In this document: one piece after another, positions 1-33,230 of the stretch
How the letters are laid out: each line of letters begins with the position of its first letter
How positions within the stretch are numbered: position 1 is the first letter of the stretch
NCBI GenBank assembly: GCA_017545505.1
Contig: JAFWNB010000004.1
Span: 1-64,000 of the forward strand
Reading direction: 5' to 3'
Length of the DNA: 64,000 nucleotides
DNA from: Candidatus Saccharimonadota bacterium
GTDB taxonomy: Bacteria; Patescibacteriota; Saccharimonadia; Saccharimonadales; Saccharimonadaceae
Position numbers and translations under genes: made by a program
Notes under the pieces: model-generated
Told to the model about the DNA's origin: nothing
Seen by the model: the letters and a program-made list of their open reading frames with translations, nothing else
Databases searched by the model: none

Positions 1-1287
1 ACGCCAAACGGTGGCGATTCGACGATAAAGACAATTACTTTCTCTACACTCGTAACGCACGCCGCGCCAAACTTCTCGAACTTTGAATATAGAGATACTA
101 ACGCGACAACGACCGGGATGACCGGTAACGACCAAGCAATGATTCAAGGTCAATCTACTCCACTCGTAACGATTTCCACCGTCAACAAAGCAACTGGTAA
201 CGATGGAGTAGGAGTTTCCAACTACGCCATCACATTCGTTGGCCAATCCAAAACAATCGATTATTCTAGTAGTGAGGCCGTCTCTACCTCGTTAAACGCA
301 CCGGCGGAAGCTGGCACGAGCAATTTGACCGTATCTGCAGTAGATGCCCTCTCTACAGCAAAAGCCGTTTCTAAACCCGTAACGATTTATCCTTGGGCTA
401 AACCGACCATTTCCGCCTCGATACAGCGTGTAAATAACTTTGAATCGGAAGCCAAACTGAACGCGTCCGGAACTTACTCGCCAATTCTAATAAATGGCGT
501 GGCGAAGAATACAATTTCTCTCGAATATAGAACCAAAAAGTCATCCAGCTCGGAATGGAGCAGCTGGACTTCAAGATCCGTAACAATAAGTGGCGCTAAC
601 TGGTCGCTCTCTAACCTATCGATTACGCTCGACAATAATTACCAATGGGATGTACAAGTGCGAGCCGTGGATACTTTCTCCAATACCGCAACCGACTTAT
701 CGCTCTCAATCGGGATGCCGAACTTCTTTATTGGCGTGGACGGCAGAGTTTCTATCGGAATGAGGCCAAGTAAAACCTTGGCGAGTGGCGATCGCGGACA
801 TCTCGAAGTAGATGGGCCAGTATATTCAAAAGGCGTGCCACTAGTTTCTAGTCATGTCGGGCAGATTATTATGACAACAACCCTAAATACGGCCGCCAAA
901 GTTCAGGCCATTTATGGCGGAACTTGGGTAGCGTGGGGTGCCGGACGCGTGCCGGTAGGTATTGGTTCAAACGGAACCACAAACTATTCAACAGTAGAGG
1001 CGACCGGCGGCGAAGAAAAGCACACATTAACTATAGCTGAAATGCCGAGCCATACTCACACGCAGAATTCTCATTCTCACACGACTTATAATAGATGGAA
1101 TTCATACGCCGCAGGTAATTTGTCGGGCTATGGATATACTTCGCCGGCGAACAGCTGGGCGCAGGATGGCTGGCAACAAGATTATACCGGTGGCACGACA
1201 GCAACAAACCAAAATACTGGTGGCGGTGGATCACACGAAAATAGACAGCCATACATCACGGTCTATATGTGGAAGCGGACGGCATAA
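1..1287 (+). CDS. Phage tail / receptor-binding protein, 5' end outside window
   Basis: The frame is open from base 1, so the N-terminus is missing; the first ATG at 118 is internal. The N-terminal part is Ser/Thr-rich beta material of the kind found in phage minor structural (DUF859-like) proteins. The last ~140 residues (from about base 865) resemble the collar/T4 gp10 C-terminal fold used in tail fibres and baseplates: GGTWVAWGAGRVPVG, then EMPSHTH with a His-rich stretch, then a GGGGSHENRQPYITVYMWKR end. Role inferred: host-surface recognition by a phage tail or tail-derived particle. No other phage structural gene is visible, so it may be the end of a prophage or tail module lying to the left. 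Confident of phage ancestry, less so of present function. Confidence 0.8.
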   Translation, partial: TPNGGDSTIKTITFSTLVTHAAPNFSNFEYRDTNATTTGMTGNDQAMIQGQSTPLVTISTVNKATGNDGVGVSNYAITFVGQSKTIDYSSSEAVSTSLNAPAEAGTSNLTVSAVDALSTAKAVSKPVTIYPWAKPTISASIQRVNNFESEAKLNASGTYSPILINGVAKNTISLEYRTKKSSSSEWSSWTSRSVTISGANWSLSNLSITLDNNYQWDVQVRAVDTFSNTATDLSLSIGMPNFFIGVDGRVSIGMRPSKTLASGDRGHLEVDGPVYSKGVPLVSSHVGQIIMTTTLNTAAKVQAIYGGTWVAWGAGRVPVGIGSNGTTNYSTVEATGGEEKHTLTIAEMPSHTHTQNSHSHTTYNRWNSYAAGNLSGYGYTSPANSWAQDGWQQDYTGGTTATNQNTGGGGSHENRQPYITVYMWKRTA

Positions 1288-1302
1288 ACTTACATTTAAT
1301 GG

Positions 1303-1308
1303 TATAAT
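1303..1308 (+). promoter_or_regulatory. -10 box of FtsK-like gene, leaderless arrangement
   Basis: TATAAT is followed by exactly six bases and then the ATG at 1315, so transcription should begin at or next to the start codon. No Shine-Dalgarno is present between them. The -35 is weak. Confidence 0.55.
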
Positions 1309-1314
1309 AGTAAT

Positions 1315-2076
1315 ATGAACACCAACCAAAAGTATCCATCTTTTGTACTTGGTTGCGGCGAAGACGGAGCCGATATTTCTTATACACTTGGGCCTAGAGA
1401 ATCCGTGATTCTAATGGCTGGTACTTGTGGTAATGGCCGCACGACTCTAATTCAACGAATTATAACACAGTTGATAAGTAGTTACTTTTCAGATGAGGTT
1501 CAATTCATCCTCGCAGATACTATTGGAATTTCGTTTGGACAATATAAAGGACTACCATATCTAATAAAAGATCCATTAACTAAGCCAAAAGAAATAATTG
1601 AGGCAATGGACTGGATCCTAGAAGAAAACAAGCGTCGAACCGAAATAGTCAAAAATAGCAAAGATAAAAATAAAGCCGCCTCCAGCTTTCCGGCGCTCAT
1701 TTTTGTAATAGATGAATTTTCTTATCTATTTAAGAGAGATGGTATTGAGCATGACAAATTTACTTTATTCTTGAGTGAGTTTAATAAGCTTAGTCGCTAC
1801 GCTAATACCCACATTATCTTATCAACTCAAAGACGCGAAGAAGAATTTATAACGGAACAGGATCTAGGCTATATGCCAACAAGATTTATCTTCCATTGTC
1901 TTGACGACAAAGAATCTAAGCGACTAATTCTTTTAGATGGTGCCGAAAATCTAAAGCAAGGAGAATTTCTATACCGAAGTGATACTATGCCCGAGCCAGT
2001 TTTCTGTAAAATCGAGAATTTATCAGAAAAAGATATAGAAAAAACGATAAAGGAGATAAATGAAAAAGTGTCCTAA
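1315..2076 (+). CDS. Stand-alone FtsK/SpoIIIE-type ATPase domain with atypical Walker A
   Basis: A 253-residue protein made of only an FtsK-like motor domain. The family order is visible: P-loop region AGTCGNGRTT (residues ~36-45), Walker B FVIDEF preceded by PALI (~125-134), the sensor ILSTQRR (~164), then PTRFIFH and the DxKESKRLIL / GEFLYRS segment typical of FtsK C-terminal halves. The Walker A lysine is replaced by Arg (NGRTT instead of SGKST). No membrane segment, coiled coil or gamma DNA-reading domain is present. It heads an operon with two overlapping downstream genes and follows the phage tail gene by 27 bases. Possible roles: DNA pumping for an integrated element, or an ATPase that binds but hydrolyses poorly. 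Family assignment is firm, function is not. Confidence 0.8.
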   Translation: MNTNQKYPSFVLGCGEDGADISYTLGPRESVILMAGTCGNGRTTLIQRIITQLISSYFSDEVQFILADTIGISFGQYKGLPYLIKDPLTKPKEIIEAMDWILEENKRRTEIVKNSKDKNKAASSFPALIFVIDEFSYLFKRDGIEHDKFTLFLSEFNKLSRYANTHIILSTQRREEEFITEQDLGYMPTRFIFHCLDDKESKRLILLDGAENLKQGEFLYRSDTMPEPVFCKIENLSEKDIEKTIKEINEKVS

Positions 2077-2281
2077 ATGCGGTGAAAGCCTAATTGAAAT
2101 CGTATATGGAATGCCTGGCATAGAATTATTTGAAGCCGAAGAACGCGGTGAAGTAATTCTTGGTGGCTGTTGCGTATCTGATGATGATCCAAAATATCGT
2201 TGTAAAAAGTGTGACATAGATTATTCCCGAGACTTAAAAAAGACATTTAAACCAGATCACGGAATTGAATTAGATGGATAA
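2060..2281 (+). CDS. Small zinc-ribbon protein
   Basis: Seventy-three residues with two CxxC knuckles: KCPKCGE at residues 3-9 and RCKKC near 47-51, which together would bind one zinc ion. The middle segment (IVYGMPGIELFEAEERGEV, LGGCCV) matches a small uncharacterised zinc-ribbon family widespread in bacteria. It overlaps the end of the FtsK-like gene by 17 bases, with an AAAGGAG Shine-Dalgarno inside that gene, so the two are translationally coupled. No function is known to me; it could be a nucleic-acid-binding or adaptor protein. Fold assignment is good. Confidence 0.75.
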   Translation: MKKCPKCGESLIEIVYGMPGIELFEAEERGEVILGGCCVSDDDPKYRCKKCDIDYSRDLKKTFKPDHGIELDG

Positions 2282-2657
2282 CGAAAACCTGGTTTTAAAA
2301 ATCGAACACGAAAACTGGGGAGAAATTGGTCCGGGAGGTTGGCAAGGCACCGTATGGAAAATTTATGGCGACTTGAAAATGGAAATATTTCTGACTGTCA
2401 GTTTTGGGGATAAGAAGAAAAAACAAACTAAAATAAGCCAGAAAGATTTTGATTATATTCTAGACCTACTAAAACAGTCCGAAAAAGATGATAGAAAAAT
2501 CGAAGCTCTAGACGGTTCTGTATGGTCAATAAAAAGATATCAAGGCAAAACGCTCGTCTGGGAACGCAAAATAGGATACATTTACGGTATTAAGTCATTA
2601 GAGACTCTATCCGGATTTCTCTACAAACTAGCCGGAATGAAGAAAATTAATTGGTAG
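2274..2657 (+). CDS. Hypothetical protein of the FtsK-like operon
   Basis: A soluble 127-residue protein that overlaps the zinc-ribbon gene by eight bases and therefore belongs to the same transcript. It is Lys-rich and contains several Trp (GGWQGTVWKIYG, DGSVWSIKRY). I see no signal peptide, membrane segment or recognised motif. The sequence looks like a compact alpha/beta fold. I do not recognise the family. Conserved coupling with an FtsK-type ATPase would suggest a shared role, but that is inference. Confidence 0.6.
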   Translation: MDNENLVLKIEHENWGEIGPGGWQGTVWKIYGDLKMEIFLTVSFGDKKKKQTKISQKDFDYILDLLKQSEKDDRKIEALDGSVWSIKRYQGKTLVWERKIGYIYGIKSLETLSGFLYKLAGMKKINW

Positions 2658-2768
2658 CTACTTCTTTTTCTTCTTAAAGAGCTTCGCGATATCTTTACCG
2701 AAGCTGACAAGAAAAGCAACCACAATAATTACGGCGATAATAATAAGAGCGATTACTAAAATAGGCAT
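2658..2768 (-). CDS. 36-residue membrane protein with polylysine tail
   Basis: A short reading frame from ATG at 2768 to TAG at 2658. Residues 2-22 form one strongly hydrophobic Ile/Val/Leu helix, followed by SFGKDIAKLF and a final run of five lysines, the pattern of a single-pass protein with a positively charged cytoplasmic end. A TATAAT (2775-2780 on the opposite strand) ends six bases before the ATG, the same leaderless spacing seen for many recognised genes here, which supports it as a real gene. It converges on the operon 1315-2657 with no gap. Function unknown; a toxin-like or membrane-associated peptide is possible but not shown. Confidence 0.55.
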   Translation of the reverse strand: MPILVIALIIIAVIIVVAFLVSFGKDIAKLFKKKKK

Positions 2769-2796
2769 ATAACCATTATATCAAAATCAGCATAAT

Positions 2797-2934
2797 CCTA
2801 GTAGCTTCTCCTGGGCCGGCAATAAGATGAAAAACCTGTTGGACGGGATTTTCAATGTCGGGCTTGCAAGGAACTAGGCACTTTTGTTCGCCCAATTAGT
2901 TGCGATGTTTGTCGGCCCGGGAGAAACTACTAGG
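2797..2934 (+). ncRNA. Candidate structured RNA (three-way junction)
   Basis: Arms 2797-2821 and 2910-2934 form a 25-position stem. Read on the plus strand it has 22 Watson-Crick pairs, two G-U pairs and one mismatch. The interior holds two more hairpins: 2829-2853 (GAAAA/TTTTC plus CC/GG) and 2860-2893 (GGGC/GCCC stacked on GAAC/GTTC with a seven-base bulge). No open frame explains it. It does not match SRP RNA, tmRNA, RNase P or T-box signatures that I can recognise; a 6S-like role is possible. The strand is uncertain, since the minus-strand fold is almost as good. Confidence 0.5.
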
Positions 2935-2941
2935 GTTTCTC

Positions 2942-3181
2942 CTAAAAGATTTTCGTTTCCGACACAATATATCCCTCCGTGGTAGATTCCTGCTTGATGA
3001 TACAAATTGCTTCGAAGCGGTCTTCCTCTTTTAGGATCTTCTTGTATCTGCGAGCATGGTCGCGATTTTTAAACCATAGTGAATACGGGTGGTTGCGATC
3101 ATTATTCACGATAACCTTATAAATTGCTTGATTATCAGCCCATTCGGATGAGTCGATTATCTTCATGGCTTTGTCGACCAA
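2942..3181 (-). CDS. Hypothetical protein, start uncertain
   Basis: Seventy-nine residues if the TTG at 3181 is used, 74 from the ATG at 3166. The product is small, charged and Arg/Lys-rich (FKNRDHARRYKKILKEEDRFE), with no membrane segment or known motif; the NRDHARRYKKIL helix could contact nucleic acid. A perfect AGGAGGT (3241-3247) lies too far upstream for either start but is five bases from an in-frame ATA at 3235; reading from there adds about 18 residues of credible protein (IRDKVRISLFGRSGSF). The gene may therefore use a non-canonical start or have lost its ATG. Function unknown. Confidence 0.5.
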   Translation of the reverse strand: MVDKAMKIIDSSEWADNQAIYKVIVNNDRNHPYSLWFKNRDHARRYKKILKEEDRFEAICIIKQESTTEGYIVSETKIF

Positions 3182-3340
3182 GAAACTACCTGACCGTCCG
3201 AATAGACTAATACGAACTTTATCTCTTATACCTATAGATTACCTCCTGCTTAAAGTTGATATTGATGTGCTAGGCGTCTTGTTGCCTCTGTGGAGTAATC
3301 AATAAATCTTCTGCATACCAAATTGACGACTCCAATTGAA

Positions 3341-3376
3341 CCAACAAAAAACTCAGAGATTTAACTCTGAGTTTTC
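3341..3376 (-). terminator. Terminator after the tRNA cluster
   Basis: An 11-bp stem (AAAACTCAGAG, 3347-3357, with its complement 3365-3375) and seven-base loop, followed on the minus strand by a run of T. It lies directly downstream of tRNA-Thr. Confidence 0.85.
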
Positions 3377-3385
3377 AATTTCAAA

Positions 3386-3460
3386 TGGAGCCGTCTGTGG
3401 GATTTGAACCCACGACCCCGTCCTTACCATGGACGTGCTCTACCACTGAGCTAAGACGGC
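3386..3460 (-). tRNA. tRNA-Thr (GGT)
   Basis: A complete 75-base cloverleaf with encoded CCA. The acceptor GCCGTCT pairs with AGACGGC; the anticodon arm is CGTCC/GGACG around loop ATGGTAA, giving anticodon GGT. The T arm holds GGGTTCAAATCCC. It is the last gene of a minus-strand tRNA cluster. Confidence 0.92.
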
Positions 3461-3485: not shown

Positions 3486-3566
3486 CGGCACTTCTCGCCA
3501 CTGTAGCCTCAGTTGTAAGACCGTAGCCTTACCATGGATGCGCTCTACCAACTGAGCTATCGCGGC
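3486..3566 (-). pseudogene. Decayed tRNA-Thr-like gene
   Basis: The first 40 bases (3566 down to 3527) read as a good tRNA 5' half: GCCGCGA acceptor strand, D arm AGCTCAGTTGGTAGAGC and the loop ATGGTAA with anticodon GGT, close to the intact tRNA-Thr nearby. After that the cloverleaf fails. The anticodon stem cannot close fully, a direct repeat GGCTAC occurs twice, there is no GGTTCRA T loop, and the 3' acceptor strand TCGCGGC and CCA are absent. I read it as a broken duplicate. An unusual functional tRNA cannot be fully excluded. Confidence 0.65.
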
Positions 3567-3567
3567 A

Positions 3568-3588
3568 TGATGCTGGAGGTTGGACTCG
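3568..3588 (-). repeat. Second copy of tRNA-Tyr 3' end
   Basis: These 21 bases repeat the last 21 bases of tRNA-Tyr (3643-3663) with one difference, so the CCA end reads TCA. The offset is 75 bases. Its T-arm side forms a short hairpin (CTCGCT/AGCGAG) absent from the tRNA. A hairpin (CATTC/GAATG, about 3628-3642) stands between the tRNA and the copy. This is the same layout as at the two tRNA-Ala genes. Confidence 0.75.
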
Positions 3589-3642
3589 CTTCGAGCGAGG
3601 CGAGAACTGGTGTCCTGCTTTTTAATACACATTCGAAGAATG

Positions 3643-3728
3643 TGGTGCTGGAGGTTGGACTCGAACCAACGATGGGGGAACCCCGGCAGATTTACAGTCT
3701 GCTGTCATAGCCACTAGACGACTCCAGC
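3643..3728 (-). tRNA. tRNA-Tyr (GTA)
   Basis: An 86-base class II tRNA with a long variable arm and encoded CCA. Acceptor GCTGGAG/CTCCAGC, anticodon loop CTGTAAA (anticodon GTA), T arm TTGG-TTCGAGT-CCAA. It starts 40 bases after the stop of the TPR gene and may be co-transcribed with it and with tRNA-Thr. Confidence 0.92.
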
Positions 3729-7105: not shown

Positions 7106-7182
7106 GGGGCGTTAGCTCAGCTGATTAGAGCGCTACTATGGCATAGTAGAGGTCATGAGTTTGAATCTCATACGCTCCACCA
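7106..7182 (+). tRNA. tRNA-Ala (GGC)
   Basis: A 77-base tRNA with encoded CCA. Acceptor GGGGCGT/ACGCTCC, D arm AGCTCAGCTGATTAGAGC, anticodon arm CTACT/AGTAG with loop ATGGCAT (anticodon GGC), T arm ATGAG-TTTGAAT-CTCAT. It is the first part of a cassette with a terminator and a CCA-ended hairpin that recurs at 10893. Confidence 0.93.
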
Positions 7183-7187
7183 GAGAT

Positions 7188-7217
7188 AAAAAAGAAGTCG
7201 CTTGCGGCTTGTTTTTT
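7188..7217 (+). terminator. Terminator after tRNA-Ala(GGC)
   Basis: AAGTCGC pairs with GCGGCTT (one G-U) around a two-base turn, preceded by A-run and followed by TTTTTT. It is nearly identical to the terminator after the second tRNA-Ala at 10975. Confidence 0.85.
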
Positions 7218-7225
7218 ATTTCTTA

Positions 7226-7267
7226 GGAGCGGCCTGAGATTACGCAGTAATCTCATACGCTCCACCA
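7226..7267 (+). ncRNA. tRNA-minihelix-like hairpin, cassette 1
   Basis: GGAGCG (7226-7231) pairs with CGCTCC (7258-7263) and TGAGATTAC (7235-7243) with GTAATCTCA (7247-7255), separated by a 3x2 internal loop and closed by GCA. The 3' strand ends ACCA. Bases 7249-7267 are identical to the last 19 bases of the neighbouring tRNA-Ala, 85 bases upstream. A T-run follows. It could be a tRNA-derived RNA, a second terminator, or a scar of integration. Its transcription is not shown, since a terminator stands before it. Confidence 0.55.
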
Positions 7268-10892: not shown

Positions 10893-10968
10893 GGGGTGTT
10901 AGCTCAGCTGATAGAGCGCTGCATTCGCATTGCAGAGGTCAGGAGTTTGAATCTCCTACACTCCACCA
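10893..10968 (+). tRNA. tRNA-Ala (CGC)
   Basis: A 76-base tRNA with encoded CCA. Acceptor GGGGTGT/ACACTCC, anticodon arm CTGCA/TGCAG around TTCGCAT (anticodon CGC), T arm AGGAG-TTTGAAT-CTCCT. Closely related to the tRNA-Ala at 7106, with compensating changes in acceptor and T stems. Confidence 0.93.
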
Positions 10969-10974
10969 AAAATG

Positions 10975-11004
10975 AAAAAAGAAGTCGCTTGCGACTTGTT
11001 TTTT
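10975..11004 (+). terminator. Terminator after tRNA-Ala(CGC)
   Basis: A perfect 7-bp stem AAGTCGC/GCGACTT with A-run before and TTTTTT after. Near-identical to the one at 7188. Confidence 0.87.
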
Positions 11005-11011
11005 GTTTTTA

Positions 11012-11053
11012 GGAGTGGCCGGAGATTACTTCGTAATCTCCTACACTCCACCA
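11012..11053 (+). ncRNA. tRNA-minihelix-like hairpin, cassette 2
   Basis: GGAGTG (11012-11017) pairs with CACTCC (11044-11049) and GGAGATTAC (11021-11029) with GTAATCTCC (11033-11041); loop TTC; end ACCA. Bases 11035-11053 equal the last 19 bases of tRNA-Ala(CGC), again exactly 85 bases downstream. Compared with cassette 1 both stems differ by paired changes (C-G to T-A, T-A to G-C), so pairing is kept. A run of T follows. Confidence 0.55.
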
Positions 11054-30777: not shown

Positions 30778-33230
30778 ACTACAATATTTAATAATTTAGC
30801 TCGACTAATAAAAATGGTCTTTTTGATGCCGTTTTCGGTATATTTTTGGATTCTTTCGTCATCAAGAGCGAGTTTTATAATCTTATCTTCATTTTCAAGA
30901 TCATCTTGACCTACTACAAGTTTTGAACGTAGCTTACCATTTACTTGTATTACGATTTCTACGGTATCAGATACGAGATATTTGTCGTCCCATTTCGGCC
31001 ATTCATCATCAGAATCTAATTTCTCAAGCATTTCGGAAGCTAGATGCGGTGCAAATGGCTTAAGTAATTTAGCTAGCGTTATTAAATCTTCTTCTTCGGC
31101 TCCGCTTTTATATAATTCGTTGACATATTCCATAAGAGCGGCGACGGCGGTATTGAAATTGCAATGATAGATGTCTTCGGTGACTTTTTTGATGGTTTTG
31201 TGTCTGAGAGATTTGGTATCTTTAAAATCTTCTTCTTCGGGACGTTCCTCGTGCCCGTCTTTACGGGGCTCGTCACTGAGTCCTCGTAGCGACTGCGGAT
31301 TCCCCTCAGAAGAAGATTTTAAAGTTTCATCAAAGACTAAGTTCCAGCAACGATTGAGGAAGCGGTAGACGCCACCAACCGAACGCGGGTTCCAAGCAGC
31401 GTCAAACTCGACAGGGCCAATGAACATTTCGTAAGTGCGGAGCGTGTCTGCGCCATAGCCTTCGTCGATCACATCGAGCGGATCGATTACATTACCTTTA
31501 GACTTGCTCATTTTCTTACCATCTGGTGCATTAATGTAGCCATGATAAATTAATTTTTTAATTGGTTCACGGAAAGGCAGATATCCTTCATCGGCAAAGA
31601 ATTTACACCAGAAACGAACATATAATAGGTGCGCTACGGCGTGATCAGCGCCCACATAAATATCAGTCGGAGCCCAATACTTGACCGCATTTTGGTCCCA
31701 AGCAGCTTTTTTATCGTGAGGTGAAGTGTAACGCCAGAGATACCAAGACGAGCAAGCATAGCCATCTAATGTATCGGTTTCTCTAGTCATTTCTTCTAGG
31801 TGGGTTTCGCCGGTTTTTGGATCTTTAACTGGGATTTTTACTTTTAGCCAATCGTTAGCCTTGGCAAGTGCCGAGCGGCCGGTTTTATCTGGTTGATAAT
31901 CCTTAATTTCGGGCAATAAAACTGGGAGTTGGTCTTCTGGAATCGGGTGCGGATTGCCGTCTTTATCATAGGCGATAGGAATTGGGCAACCCCAATAACG
32001 CTGACGGGAAATCAACCAATCGCGCATTTTATACATAGTCTTTGGTGTGCCAAATTGACCAAAATCACAGAGCTCAGCTTCGACTATAGGTAAGTCGAAT
32101 TTTTCGGCAAATTCGCGATCGCGTTCATCCATAGACGGAACGGCCATAATTGCGCCAGTGCCGTAGCCCGCCAAAACGTAATCTGCTACCCAGATAGGGA
32201 TTTTTTCTTTAGTGGCGGGATTAATGGCATATGAACCGGTAAAAACACCGGTTTTTTCTTTGTTTTCCTGACGTTCAATTTCGGACTTTAGGAGCGCGTT
32301 GGCCTTATAACTCAACACTTCGTCGCGAGTATCGTCGTTTACTAAATATTCTAGGCCTGGATATTCTGGTGCGACCACAATAAAGGTGGCGCCATAGATA
32401 GTGTCGGGGCGAGTAGTAAAGACTTTGACTTTTCGAGAAGGCGACAAAGATTCTTTTGCGGACACACTCGAGGCCGTTCGGCCAAGCTTACGGTCCGCAA
32501 AAGAACTTTGCTCGCCTTCTCTAGCAATTGCAAAGTCTATTTCTGCACCAATTGAGCGGCCGATCCAGTTTTTCTGCATGGTCTTGATTTTGTCGGGCCA
32601 GTTTAGCGAATCGATTTCTTCTAGTAACTCATCGGCATATTCAGTAATTTTAAAAAACCACTGTTTCATTTTCTTTTTTTCGACTTCGTGTCCGCAACGC
32701 CAACATTTACCATTTTCTACTTGCTCATTAGCGAGAACAGTTTGATCTTCTGGACACCACCATTGGTAAGATTCTTTTTGGTAGGCGAGGCCTTTTTTGT
32801 ATAACTGAAGAAAACACCACTGGGTCCATTTGTAATAATCTGGATCCGAAGTGTTAACTTCTCTATCCCAGTCTATGGCGTAACCTAGACGCTTGGCCTG
32901 TTTTTTGAAATTGGCAATGTTTTGTTTGGTGACTTCTTGCGGGGCAGTACCAGTTTTGATGGCATAATTTTCAGCCGGGAGACCAAAAGTATCGTAGCCG
33001 AACGGTCGCATTACATTTAAACGTTGCTGCTCGTAAAACCGCGCGAGAACATCGACAATGGTGAAGTTGCGTACATGGCCTACATGCAGGCCTGCGCCGG
33101 AAGGATATGGAAACATTTCGGCGATGTACATTTTTGGGGTGTTTGGTTTTTCCTTTGCTTTAAAAGGCTTTTCTTTTTCCCAAATAGCTTGCCATTTTTG
33201 TTCAATTTTAAGCGGTTCGTATCTATCCAT
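30774..33230 (-). CDS. leuS: Leucyl-tRNA synthetase with two palindrome-derived insertions
   Basis: An 818-residue class I synthetase. HIGH is PYPSGAGLHVGHVRNF (~38-53), the KMSKS loop is GKKMSKSKGNVIDP (~570) and the editing domain starts at VFTTRPDTIYGATF. The CP1 entry carries an additional Arg/Ser/Ala-rich stretch (REGEQSSFADRKLGRTAS and on), encoded by a palindrome at 32435-32521. The linker before KTIKKVTEDIYHCNFNTA carries another low-complexity insert from the palindrome at 31220-31324. Both keep frame. A TTGTAA-17-TATAAT promoter (33238-33266) ends seven bases before the ATG, predicting a leaderless mRNA. Confidence 0.95.
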   Translation of the reverse strand: MDRYEPLKIEQKWQAIWEKEKPFKAKEKPNTPKMYIAEMFPYPSGAGLHVGHVRNFTIVDVLARFYEQQRLNVMRPFGYDTFGLPAENYAIKTGTAPQEVTKQNIANFKKQAKRLGYAIDWDREVNTSDPDYYKWTQWCFLQLYKKGLAYQKESYQWWCPEDQTVLANEQVENGKCWRCGHEVEKKKMKQWFFKITEYADELLEEIDSLNWPDKIKTMQKNWIGRSIGAEIDFAIAREGEQSSFADRKLGRTASSVSAKESLSPSRKVKVFTTRPDTIYGATFIVVAPEYPGLEYLVNDDTRDEVLSYKANALLKSEIERQENKEKTGVFTGSYAINPATKEKIPIWVADYVLAGYGTGAIMAVPSMDERDREFAEKFDLPIVEAELCDFGQFGTPKTMYKMRDWLISRQRYWGCPIPIAYDKDGNPHPIPEDQLPVLLPEIKDYQPDKTGRSALAKANDWLKVKIPVKDPKTGETHLEEMTRETDTLDGYACSSWYLWRYTSPHDKKAAWDQNAVKYWAPTDIYVGADHAVAHLLYVRFWCKFFADEGYLPFREPIKKLIYHGYINAPDGKKMSKSKGNVIDPLDVIDEGYGADTLRTYEMFIGPVEFDAAWNPRSVGGVYRFLNRCWNLVFDETLKSSSEGNPQSLRGLSDEPRKDGHEERPEEEDFKDTKSLRHKTIKKVTEDIYHCNFNTAVAALMEYVNELYKSGAEEEDLITLAKLLKPFAPHLASEMLEKLDSDDEWPKWDDKYLVSDTVEIVIQVNGKLRSKLVVGQDDLENEDKIIKLALDDERIQKYTENGIKKTIFISRAKLLNIVV
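31220..31324. repeat. In-frame palindromic element 2 in leuS
   Basis: Perfect 16-base arms CTTTAAAATCTTCTTC (31220-31235) and complement (31309-31324) enclose 73 bases with further hairpins (CCCGT/ACGGG; AGTC/GACT). The total of 105 bases is 35 codons, so the frame is kept. It encodes a Ser/Glu/Arg-rich loop at a length-variable linker of the enzyme. Confidence 0.65.
32435..32521. repeat. In-frame palindromic element 1 in leuS
   Basis: Stacked perfect arms pair: GAGAAGGCG (32435-32443) with 32513-32521, CAAAG (32445-32449) with 32506-32510, and TTCTTTTGCGGAC (32451-32463) with 32493-32505. The core GGCC-GTTC-GGCC-AAGCTT (32472-32489) matches the core of the element at 16197-16273. The 87 bases equal 29 codons and add a loop absent from ordinary LeuRS. 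Confidence 0.75.

Follow-up and report, generated by a model that had tools for sequence, protein, structure and literature searches.

The window, the whole 64-kb stretch of DNA analysed here, is part of a 707-kb genome with 45 tRNAs, whose RpoA shares 98% identity with its counterpart in a Saccharibacteria genome from sheep ileum; all but one of the listed relatives are labelled Saccharibacteria, many of them from ruminant guts. On the minus strand, tRNA-Tyr(GUA) is followed by a 75-nt unit closing with a second copy of the tRNA 3′ end, and two tRNA-Ala genes on the plus strand are followed by units of 85 nt. Units of this kind are built in the order D, X′, core, and X, where D is often a terminator-like hairpin, X is the tRNA's last 18–30 nt again, and X′ is an inverted complement of the first part of X. 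The sister genome is the closest relative available (L042, genome G550).

3643–3728, minus strand: tRNA-Tyr(GUA); its last 21 nt (3643–3663) are X1
3568–3642, minus strand: 75-nt unit behind tRNA-Tyr (D, decayed X′, core, X copy)
3630–3642, minus strand: small hairpin CATTC-TTC-GAATG, the left part of D of the Tyr unit
3607–3617, minus strand: decayed X′ of the Tyr unit, CAGGACACCAG, where the complement of the tRNA 3′ part belongs (read by comparison with other units)
3589–3606, minus strand: core of the Tyr unit, TTCTCGCCTCGCTCGAAG, like the cores at Ser-gct (TTCTCGCTTTGCTCGTAT) and Gln-ttg
3568–3588, minus strand: X copy of the Tyr unit, the last 21 nt of tRNA-Tyr repeated with CCA changed to TCA
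7106–7182, plus strand: tRNA-Ala(GGC)
7183–7267, plus strand: 85-nt Ala-type unit, a terminator-like hairpin and then a minihelix; absent from the sister genome
7249–7267, plus strand: X of the Ala(GGC) unit, the 3′ strand of the minihelix, equal to the tRNA's last 19 nt
10893–10968, plus strand: tRNA-Ala(CGC)
10969–11053, plus strand: 85-nt Ala-type unit behind tRNA-Ala(CGC), read as a precise insertion; empty site in the sister (L042)
11035–11053, plus strand: X copy of the Ala(CGC) unit

The displaced tRNA-Tyr 3′ end reported in a preliminary description of this DNA is borne out, with positions 3568–3588 and 3643–3663 identical at 20 of 21 bases on the minus strand, 75 nt apart from start to start, and the change of CCA to TCA being the sole mismatch. 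The hairpin said to stand between the tRNA and its tail copy is present, and three tRNAs of the window, tRNA-Tyr and both tRNA-Ala, do share the order of tRNA, hairpin, and own 3′ end. No other stretch of the 64-kb window matches the tRNA-Tyr tail at 16 or more of 21 bases. Direct repeats of at least 14 identical bases, 30–200 nt apart, were found across the whole window only at the Tyr unit, at the two Ala units (7164/7249 and 10950/11035), and at 31084/31225, compared with 0.05 in the shuffled control; these shuffles, the lack of a rival 16/21 match, and the census of tRNA flanks given below rule out a chance repeat.

The suggestion that the unit behind tRNA-Tyr might be a tRNA-Ala type element in worn form stands in part. 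The unit is worn, with its decayed 5′ strand giving a fold z-score of −1.0 compared with −7.6 and −6.3 for the two Ala units, however it does not belong to the Ala type. With its TTCTCGCCTCGCTCGAAG core it is of the B/C type, and the copy that follows this core begins at T-loop nt 56; in the Ala units, which fold into an acceptor/T-arm minihelix, the copy begins at nt 58. A model of the long class described below does not match the window's Tyr unit, which is a short-class member. In the sister, the core of the Tyr unit is clean and of the B type, TTCTCCGAAT, and X matches the T stem of the sister's own tRNA (CCTACC), with the X of the window's Tyr unit matching the T stem of the window's own tRNA (CCAACC). 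Judged from this sequence comparison, the longer core, the damaged X′, and the change of CCA to TCA indicate a worn T-loop-type unit that was either independently acquired or is long diverged. The Tyr repeat is a decayed T-loop-type member of a widespread family resembling the RtT repeats of E. coli.

Directly beyond the Tyr repeat, a further tRNA-Thr survives as a truncated 5′ half (3527–3566, minus strand), cut after the anticodon arm. In the sister, tRNA-Thr(GGT) is intact just past the Tyr unit; in the window the 5′ half alone remains, followed by a partly inverted self-copy (3495–3566 together, minus strand; fold −34.2 kcal/mol, z −4.6). A second tRNA-Thr(GGT) at 3386–3460 adjoins phage-like genes at the contig end (window 118–3460), including a tail protein (118–1287) and an FtsK/SpoIIIE-like protein (1315–2076), and it is possible that a prophage broke and replaced the native tRNA-Thr(GGT) in the window.

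Census and anatomy of the units

For the census, the last 20 nt of each tRNA were sought within 150 nt downstream, with at least 16 of 20 matches scored as positive. Repeats of a tRNA's own 3′ end were found behind 16 of 45 tRNAs, compared with 0 of 45 upstream and 0.8% in the other-tRNA control, which disposes of the proviso in the preliminary description that such repeats might occur no more often than chance at other tRNAs; the arrangement is a recurring kind of element and not a coincidence of spacings. With diverged units included, from flanks read by eye, ~19 of the 45 tRNAs are followed by units, within ~180 nt downstream and on the same strand. Tandem arrays, within which units are near-identical, stand at five tRNAs (Ser-gct, Gln-ttg (5), Arg-tct, Leu-caa, and Pro-cgg). 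Many tRNAs and genomes are without units. Most of the genomes compared are metagenome bins.

A phylum-wide search with a tRNA-Ala repeat pattern gave mostly coding low-complexity matches outside the genus. Apparent repeats were seen behind two tRNA-like genes in family f59 (L269 and L271), also outside the genus. In the window's genome, an RtT-like unit (L402, G000:C5:4514-4594) closes with the tail of a tRNA-Leu, CTCCAGTCGCGGGCACCA, and no tRNA was found in its vicinity; tRNA-Leu(UAG) is not listed in this assembly.

An anatomy survey of 292 distinct tRNAs from the first loci yielded 91 units at 74 tRNAs. The units carry no gene, and most classes are short (58–85 nt), with a long class (class L) of about 174–188 nt. 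The start of the copy tracks the class: X measures 22 nt (from nt 55) with the core TTCTTCGAAT, 21 nt with GACC-TTC-GGTG-like cores, 18 or 19 nt in the Ala-type minihelices and the long class, and 29–30 nt in a few units, with the acceptor strand of X left unpaired in class B. The duplication usually ends at CCA, since 38 of 76 share no base past it and 59 of 76 at most two; two of the 76 extend 16 or 30 bases further. A shorter module, GTAGGARNCGAG-hairpin-GAGGYGACGCCC, which is the long-class P3 stem alone, directly abuts the CCA of tRNA-Ala or tRNA-Ile at L400, L406, L097, and L042, the last of these having the first part only (GGTAGGAAGCGAG).

Whilst X, and mostly X′, match the host tRNA, the same cores turn up behind many different tRNAs. 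The pattern CRTTCTTCGAATCRA for the core TTCTTCGAAT gave 79 matches in 174 genomes of the genus, compared with 4 for the reversed pattern. This core sits 23–109 nt behind a tRNA on the same strand in 31 of the 34 occurrences read (for the remaining three, of which one is at a contig edge, the nearest 400 nt hold no tRNA), and its hosts in the deduplicated set comprise 22 tRNA kinds. The fit of X′ to its own tRNA is 7.56 of 9 in class L, compared with 4.97 when permuted and beyond all 2000 permutations, and 6.79 of 9 in class B, compared with 5.83 (maximum 6.27 in 2000 permutations), the latter being modest because T-arm 3′ strands are alike. Behind tRNA-Glu, the unit L231 combines a D and X′ of the Leu type (as in L234) with the X of Glu itself, so the body appears to move, with X as a target duplication; no other case speaks as strongly for this. 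The Val-tac and Gln-ttg units have TTTTTGTTTCACGAAAA in common. The same body is found at different targets, with few recent cases, and the direct evidence that bodies move between tRNAs is a small sample, the pairs L231/L234 and Val-tac/Gln-ttg.

Empty sites and turnover between sister genomes

All tRNAs of the window's genome and the sister were compared, and were read by eye as some automatic unit calls were spurious. Insertions facing an empty site in the relative were found in both directions. In the sister, tRNA-Ala(CGC) runs directly into TTTTTGTTGTCATTGACTTTTTAGCTTAAG; in the window the 85-nt unit lies between, followed by TTTTTTGTTATTATTGACTTTTTAGCTTAAG. Besides this site (Ala-cgc, +85 bp), the window's genome has insertions against empty sister sites at Ala-ggc, Arg-ccg (+78 bp, next to tRNA-Met), and Thr-cgt, with the sister having its own at Asp-gtc, Arg-cct, and Leu-gag (+58 bp). 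The same unit is retained in both only at Glu-ctc; Gln-ttg and Tyr have units in both sisters, but different ones. Clean empty sites in both directions show that the units are precise, lineage-specific insertions on the 3′ side of tRNAs, with fast turnover.

The D elements of the Ala-cgc and Arg-ccg units are absent from the corresponding empty sites, and a native terminator D with simple tandem duplication was rejected for these two, with the sister's Gln unit remaining compatible with it. D repeats the native 3′ flank in the sister's Gln-ttg, in Arg-tct, and in L122, giving several units the appearance of local tandem duplications, which counts against mobility.

Two gene insertions, of 4.2 kb and 1.3 kb, were found inside units, neither with an integrase between the repeats. 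The larger separates tRNA-Ala(CGC) from its displaced 3′ end (L053, 3868-8409) and holds a UvrD-like helicase and a surface protein, with CAAAAAT flanking the insert; the locus L072 carries this unit without it. The smaller, ~1.3 kb with genes, lies between tRNA-Val or tRNA-Gln and a long-class unit (L286, 45-1600; L300, 174-1700), and the motif GTTATAAAATAATTTTCAACTATTTCRTAATCT stands after each of the two tRNA ends of L286 and also after tRNA-Leu(CAA) in L195/L196. A separate integrative element with two serine recombinases (L242, G136:C1:50000-66000) ends right at an array of Tyr-type units, with no tRNA-Tyr within 14 kb upstream and a tRNA-Thr following.

The long class and E. coli RtT

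Class L units comprise the X′/X stem, a GAGAACC-GGTTCG hairpin, a long stem holding a conserved internal loop (GUAGGAG..CGAG / GAG.CGACGCC), and a final hairpin. Their pattern gave 54 matches in 170 genomes, compared with 0 in the control, mostly 53–60 nt behind Val, Leu, Tyr, Gln, Arg, Ser, Phe, or Ile tRNAs, and an RNA core of ~100 nt is conserved at 10 tRNA kinds. Class L is a covarying RNA structure, with double-sided changes in 35 of 44 pairs (179 cells, compared with 56 in shuffles) and the signal abolished by sliding the partner.

The tyrT/RtT repeats are a long-known oddity of E. coli, and a literature search found no paper treating them as a family. In E. coli K-12, tyrT carries 178-bp repeats, each with the last 19 nt of tRNA-Tyr, of which one is annotated as rttR, a small RNA, and four are matched by RF00391; no repeat is annotated behind tyrT in E. 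coli SK1144. RF00391 found no match in the window at the Rfam gathering threshold, nor in the long unit L225 even at E ≤ 5; Rfam fails to recognise the long class. A covariance model built from Saccharibacterial long units alone, however, finds all four E. coli tyrT copies (24.5–29.2 bits, E 4e-7 to 7e-6). The tRNA-Tyr genes of E. coli score 3.6 bits with this model, which shows that the score is not merely that of the shared tRNA tail, though X, X′, and CCA contribute to it. Among 192 Patescibacteria, the model gave matches in all 3 genomes of the genus and in 3 of the 189 others; of the latter three, G272 (tRNA-Gln) and G219 (tRNA-Arg) have real units behind tRNAs. By sequence, the long class is related to E. 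coli RtT, and the units of the window's genome are RtT-like elements, far wider in distribution than tyrT and apparently mobile.

Origin of the units and comparison with known systems

The reading we favour, with a probability of roughly 0.55, is that tRNA genes are the targets of short non-coding RtT-like elements inserting immediately downstream of them, the Tyr repeat being a decayed member. The body (D-X′-core) would move between tRNAs, with X′ helping to choose the target by pairing with T-arm/acceptor sequence, and X (18–30 nt, usually ending at CCA) would arise by duplication of the target tRNA 3′ end at insertion, so that the tRNA stays intact. X′ would pair with X to give a T-arm/acceptor-like hairpin, and arrays may grow and shrink through slippage between X copies. 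Mobilisation would occur in trans, possibly by a host Xer-type recombinase, given that no reverse transcriptase or Y1 transposase was found. A bolder version is in our view doubtful: the units would be a new class of target-complementary mobile mini-elements that move in the form of their RtT-like fold, with X′ base-pairing to the 3′ part of the tRNA and so steering insertion, and the tyrT repeats of E. coli would descend from this lineage as an enterobacterial offshoot.

No mobilising enzyme was found, which, together with the lack of genes in the units, counts against the favoured reading. Reverse transcriptase is absent from the window's genome (G000) and the unit-rich G127, G108, G018, and G136, and present in unit-poor genomes. 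A mechanism in which reverse transcription halts at modified bases of the T loop is attractive as a source of the 18-nt copies (nt 59–76), but is disfavoured because of this absence and because other classes start at 55, 56, or 48. Transposition of the Y1/REP type was rejected, with Y1 transposase in 0 of 12 genomes (control rings, 5 of 14). Tyrosine recombinases occur in 12 of 12 tested genomes, three of them in G000. An Xer-like tyrosine recombinase of ~280 aa seemed enriched in unit-rich genomes, and was set aside as a unit-associated enzyme, its copy in the window's genome sitting invertase-like between inverted MKKLAIAGA surface-protein genes (L322, G000:C4:172000-180326); neighbours are similar in G108 and G018, and the locus looks like a phase-variation cassette.

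An unlikely alternative is that the units are functional RNA genes or 3′-trailer structures under selection (a second terminator, a processing decoy, or an RttR-like small RNA), spread by recombination and not by mobility of their own. The strong structure conservation and covariation in class L, the terminator-like nature of many D hairpins, and the annotation of E. coli rttR as a small RNA all agree with this, however the fast turnover that leaves one shared unit (Glu-ctc) between two sisters, the many tRNAs and genomes without units, the unpaired acceptor strand of X in class B, and the decay of the Tyr unit do not.

Replication template switching at tRNA hairpins, a snap-back tandem duplication in which no element moves, is likewise improbable. 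Here X-D would be copied, the fork would snap back over the T arm to give X′, and then return to X, leaving the order X, D, X′, X as the expected residue of two switches; the near-identical tandem units, the native 3′ flank serving as D in the sister's Gln-ttg, Arg-tct, and L122, and the lack of a reverse transcriptase or Y1 transposase are in keeping with it. Local copying cannot, however, give rise to identical non-tRNA cores at 22 tRNA kinds or a conserved ~100-nt RNA core at 10, and the D of Ala-cgc and Arg-ccg is missing from the empty site. Local template switching is possible for some arrays.

Attachment-site scars, in which tyrosine integrases of phages or islands took tRNA 3′ ends for attB and left the units as attL/attR pairs stripped of cargo, are very improbable: the copies do start at T-loop positions, which are known integrase crossover places, phage genes abut tRNA-Thr in the window, two units hold gene insertions of 1.3 and 4.2 kb, and the serine recombinase element of G136 abuts Tyr-type units, but cargo-free units of 58–85 nt recur with constant anatomy at 19 tRNAs, X′ adjoins the displaced copy, cores are common to different tRNAs, and neither an integrase between the repeats nor ordinary cargo-filled integration was found at the units, in neighbourhoods of up to 20 kb. 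A viral origin was rejected, with 0 matches of the class B core in IMG/VR and none of 59 matches to a loose class L pattern having the full motif.

Amongst known systems, integron arrays (attI/attC) likewise have structured hairpin sites arrayed at a fixed end, whereas the units as a rule hold no gene cassettes and have arms that follow the host tRNA. MITEs and REP/BIME are also short, non-coding, palindromic, and multi-copy, with target duplication at insertion, although the units have no bounding terminal inverted repeats, stand strictly behind tRNAs, and go with no Y1 transposase. Like the units, phage and island attL/attR pairs directly repeat a tRNA 3′ end, starting in the T loop, however the repeats of the units are 58–180 nt apart without integrase or cargo between, and an inverted X′ and conserved core stand beside the displaced copy; a displaced tRNA 3′ end need not be a phage attachment scar. 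Like the units, the RtT RNA (rttR, RF00391) lies behind a tRNA and repeats that tRNA's last ~19 nt, with the X′ of E. coli RtT (GGGGAAGGAT) leading directly into GAGAA..GGTTCGA in a unit of 178 bp, compared with about 174–188 here. The shared X′-GAGAA..GGTTCG..X fold, about 130 nt in repeats of ~178 nt, is a property of the long class only and not of the Tyr unit or the short classes. In contrast to RtT, the Saccharibacterial units occur at many tRNAs in several classes, most of 58–85 nt, show empty sites and cross-tRNA sharing, and are not detected by RF00391. They constitute a structured RNA family not found with Rfam, which turns over between sister species and raises the concrete question of what inserts the units and whether X′ chooses the target. 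The E. coli tyrT/RtT locus would be one case of a family found after a sizeable fraction of the tRNA genes in one genus of ultra-small bacteria.
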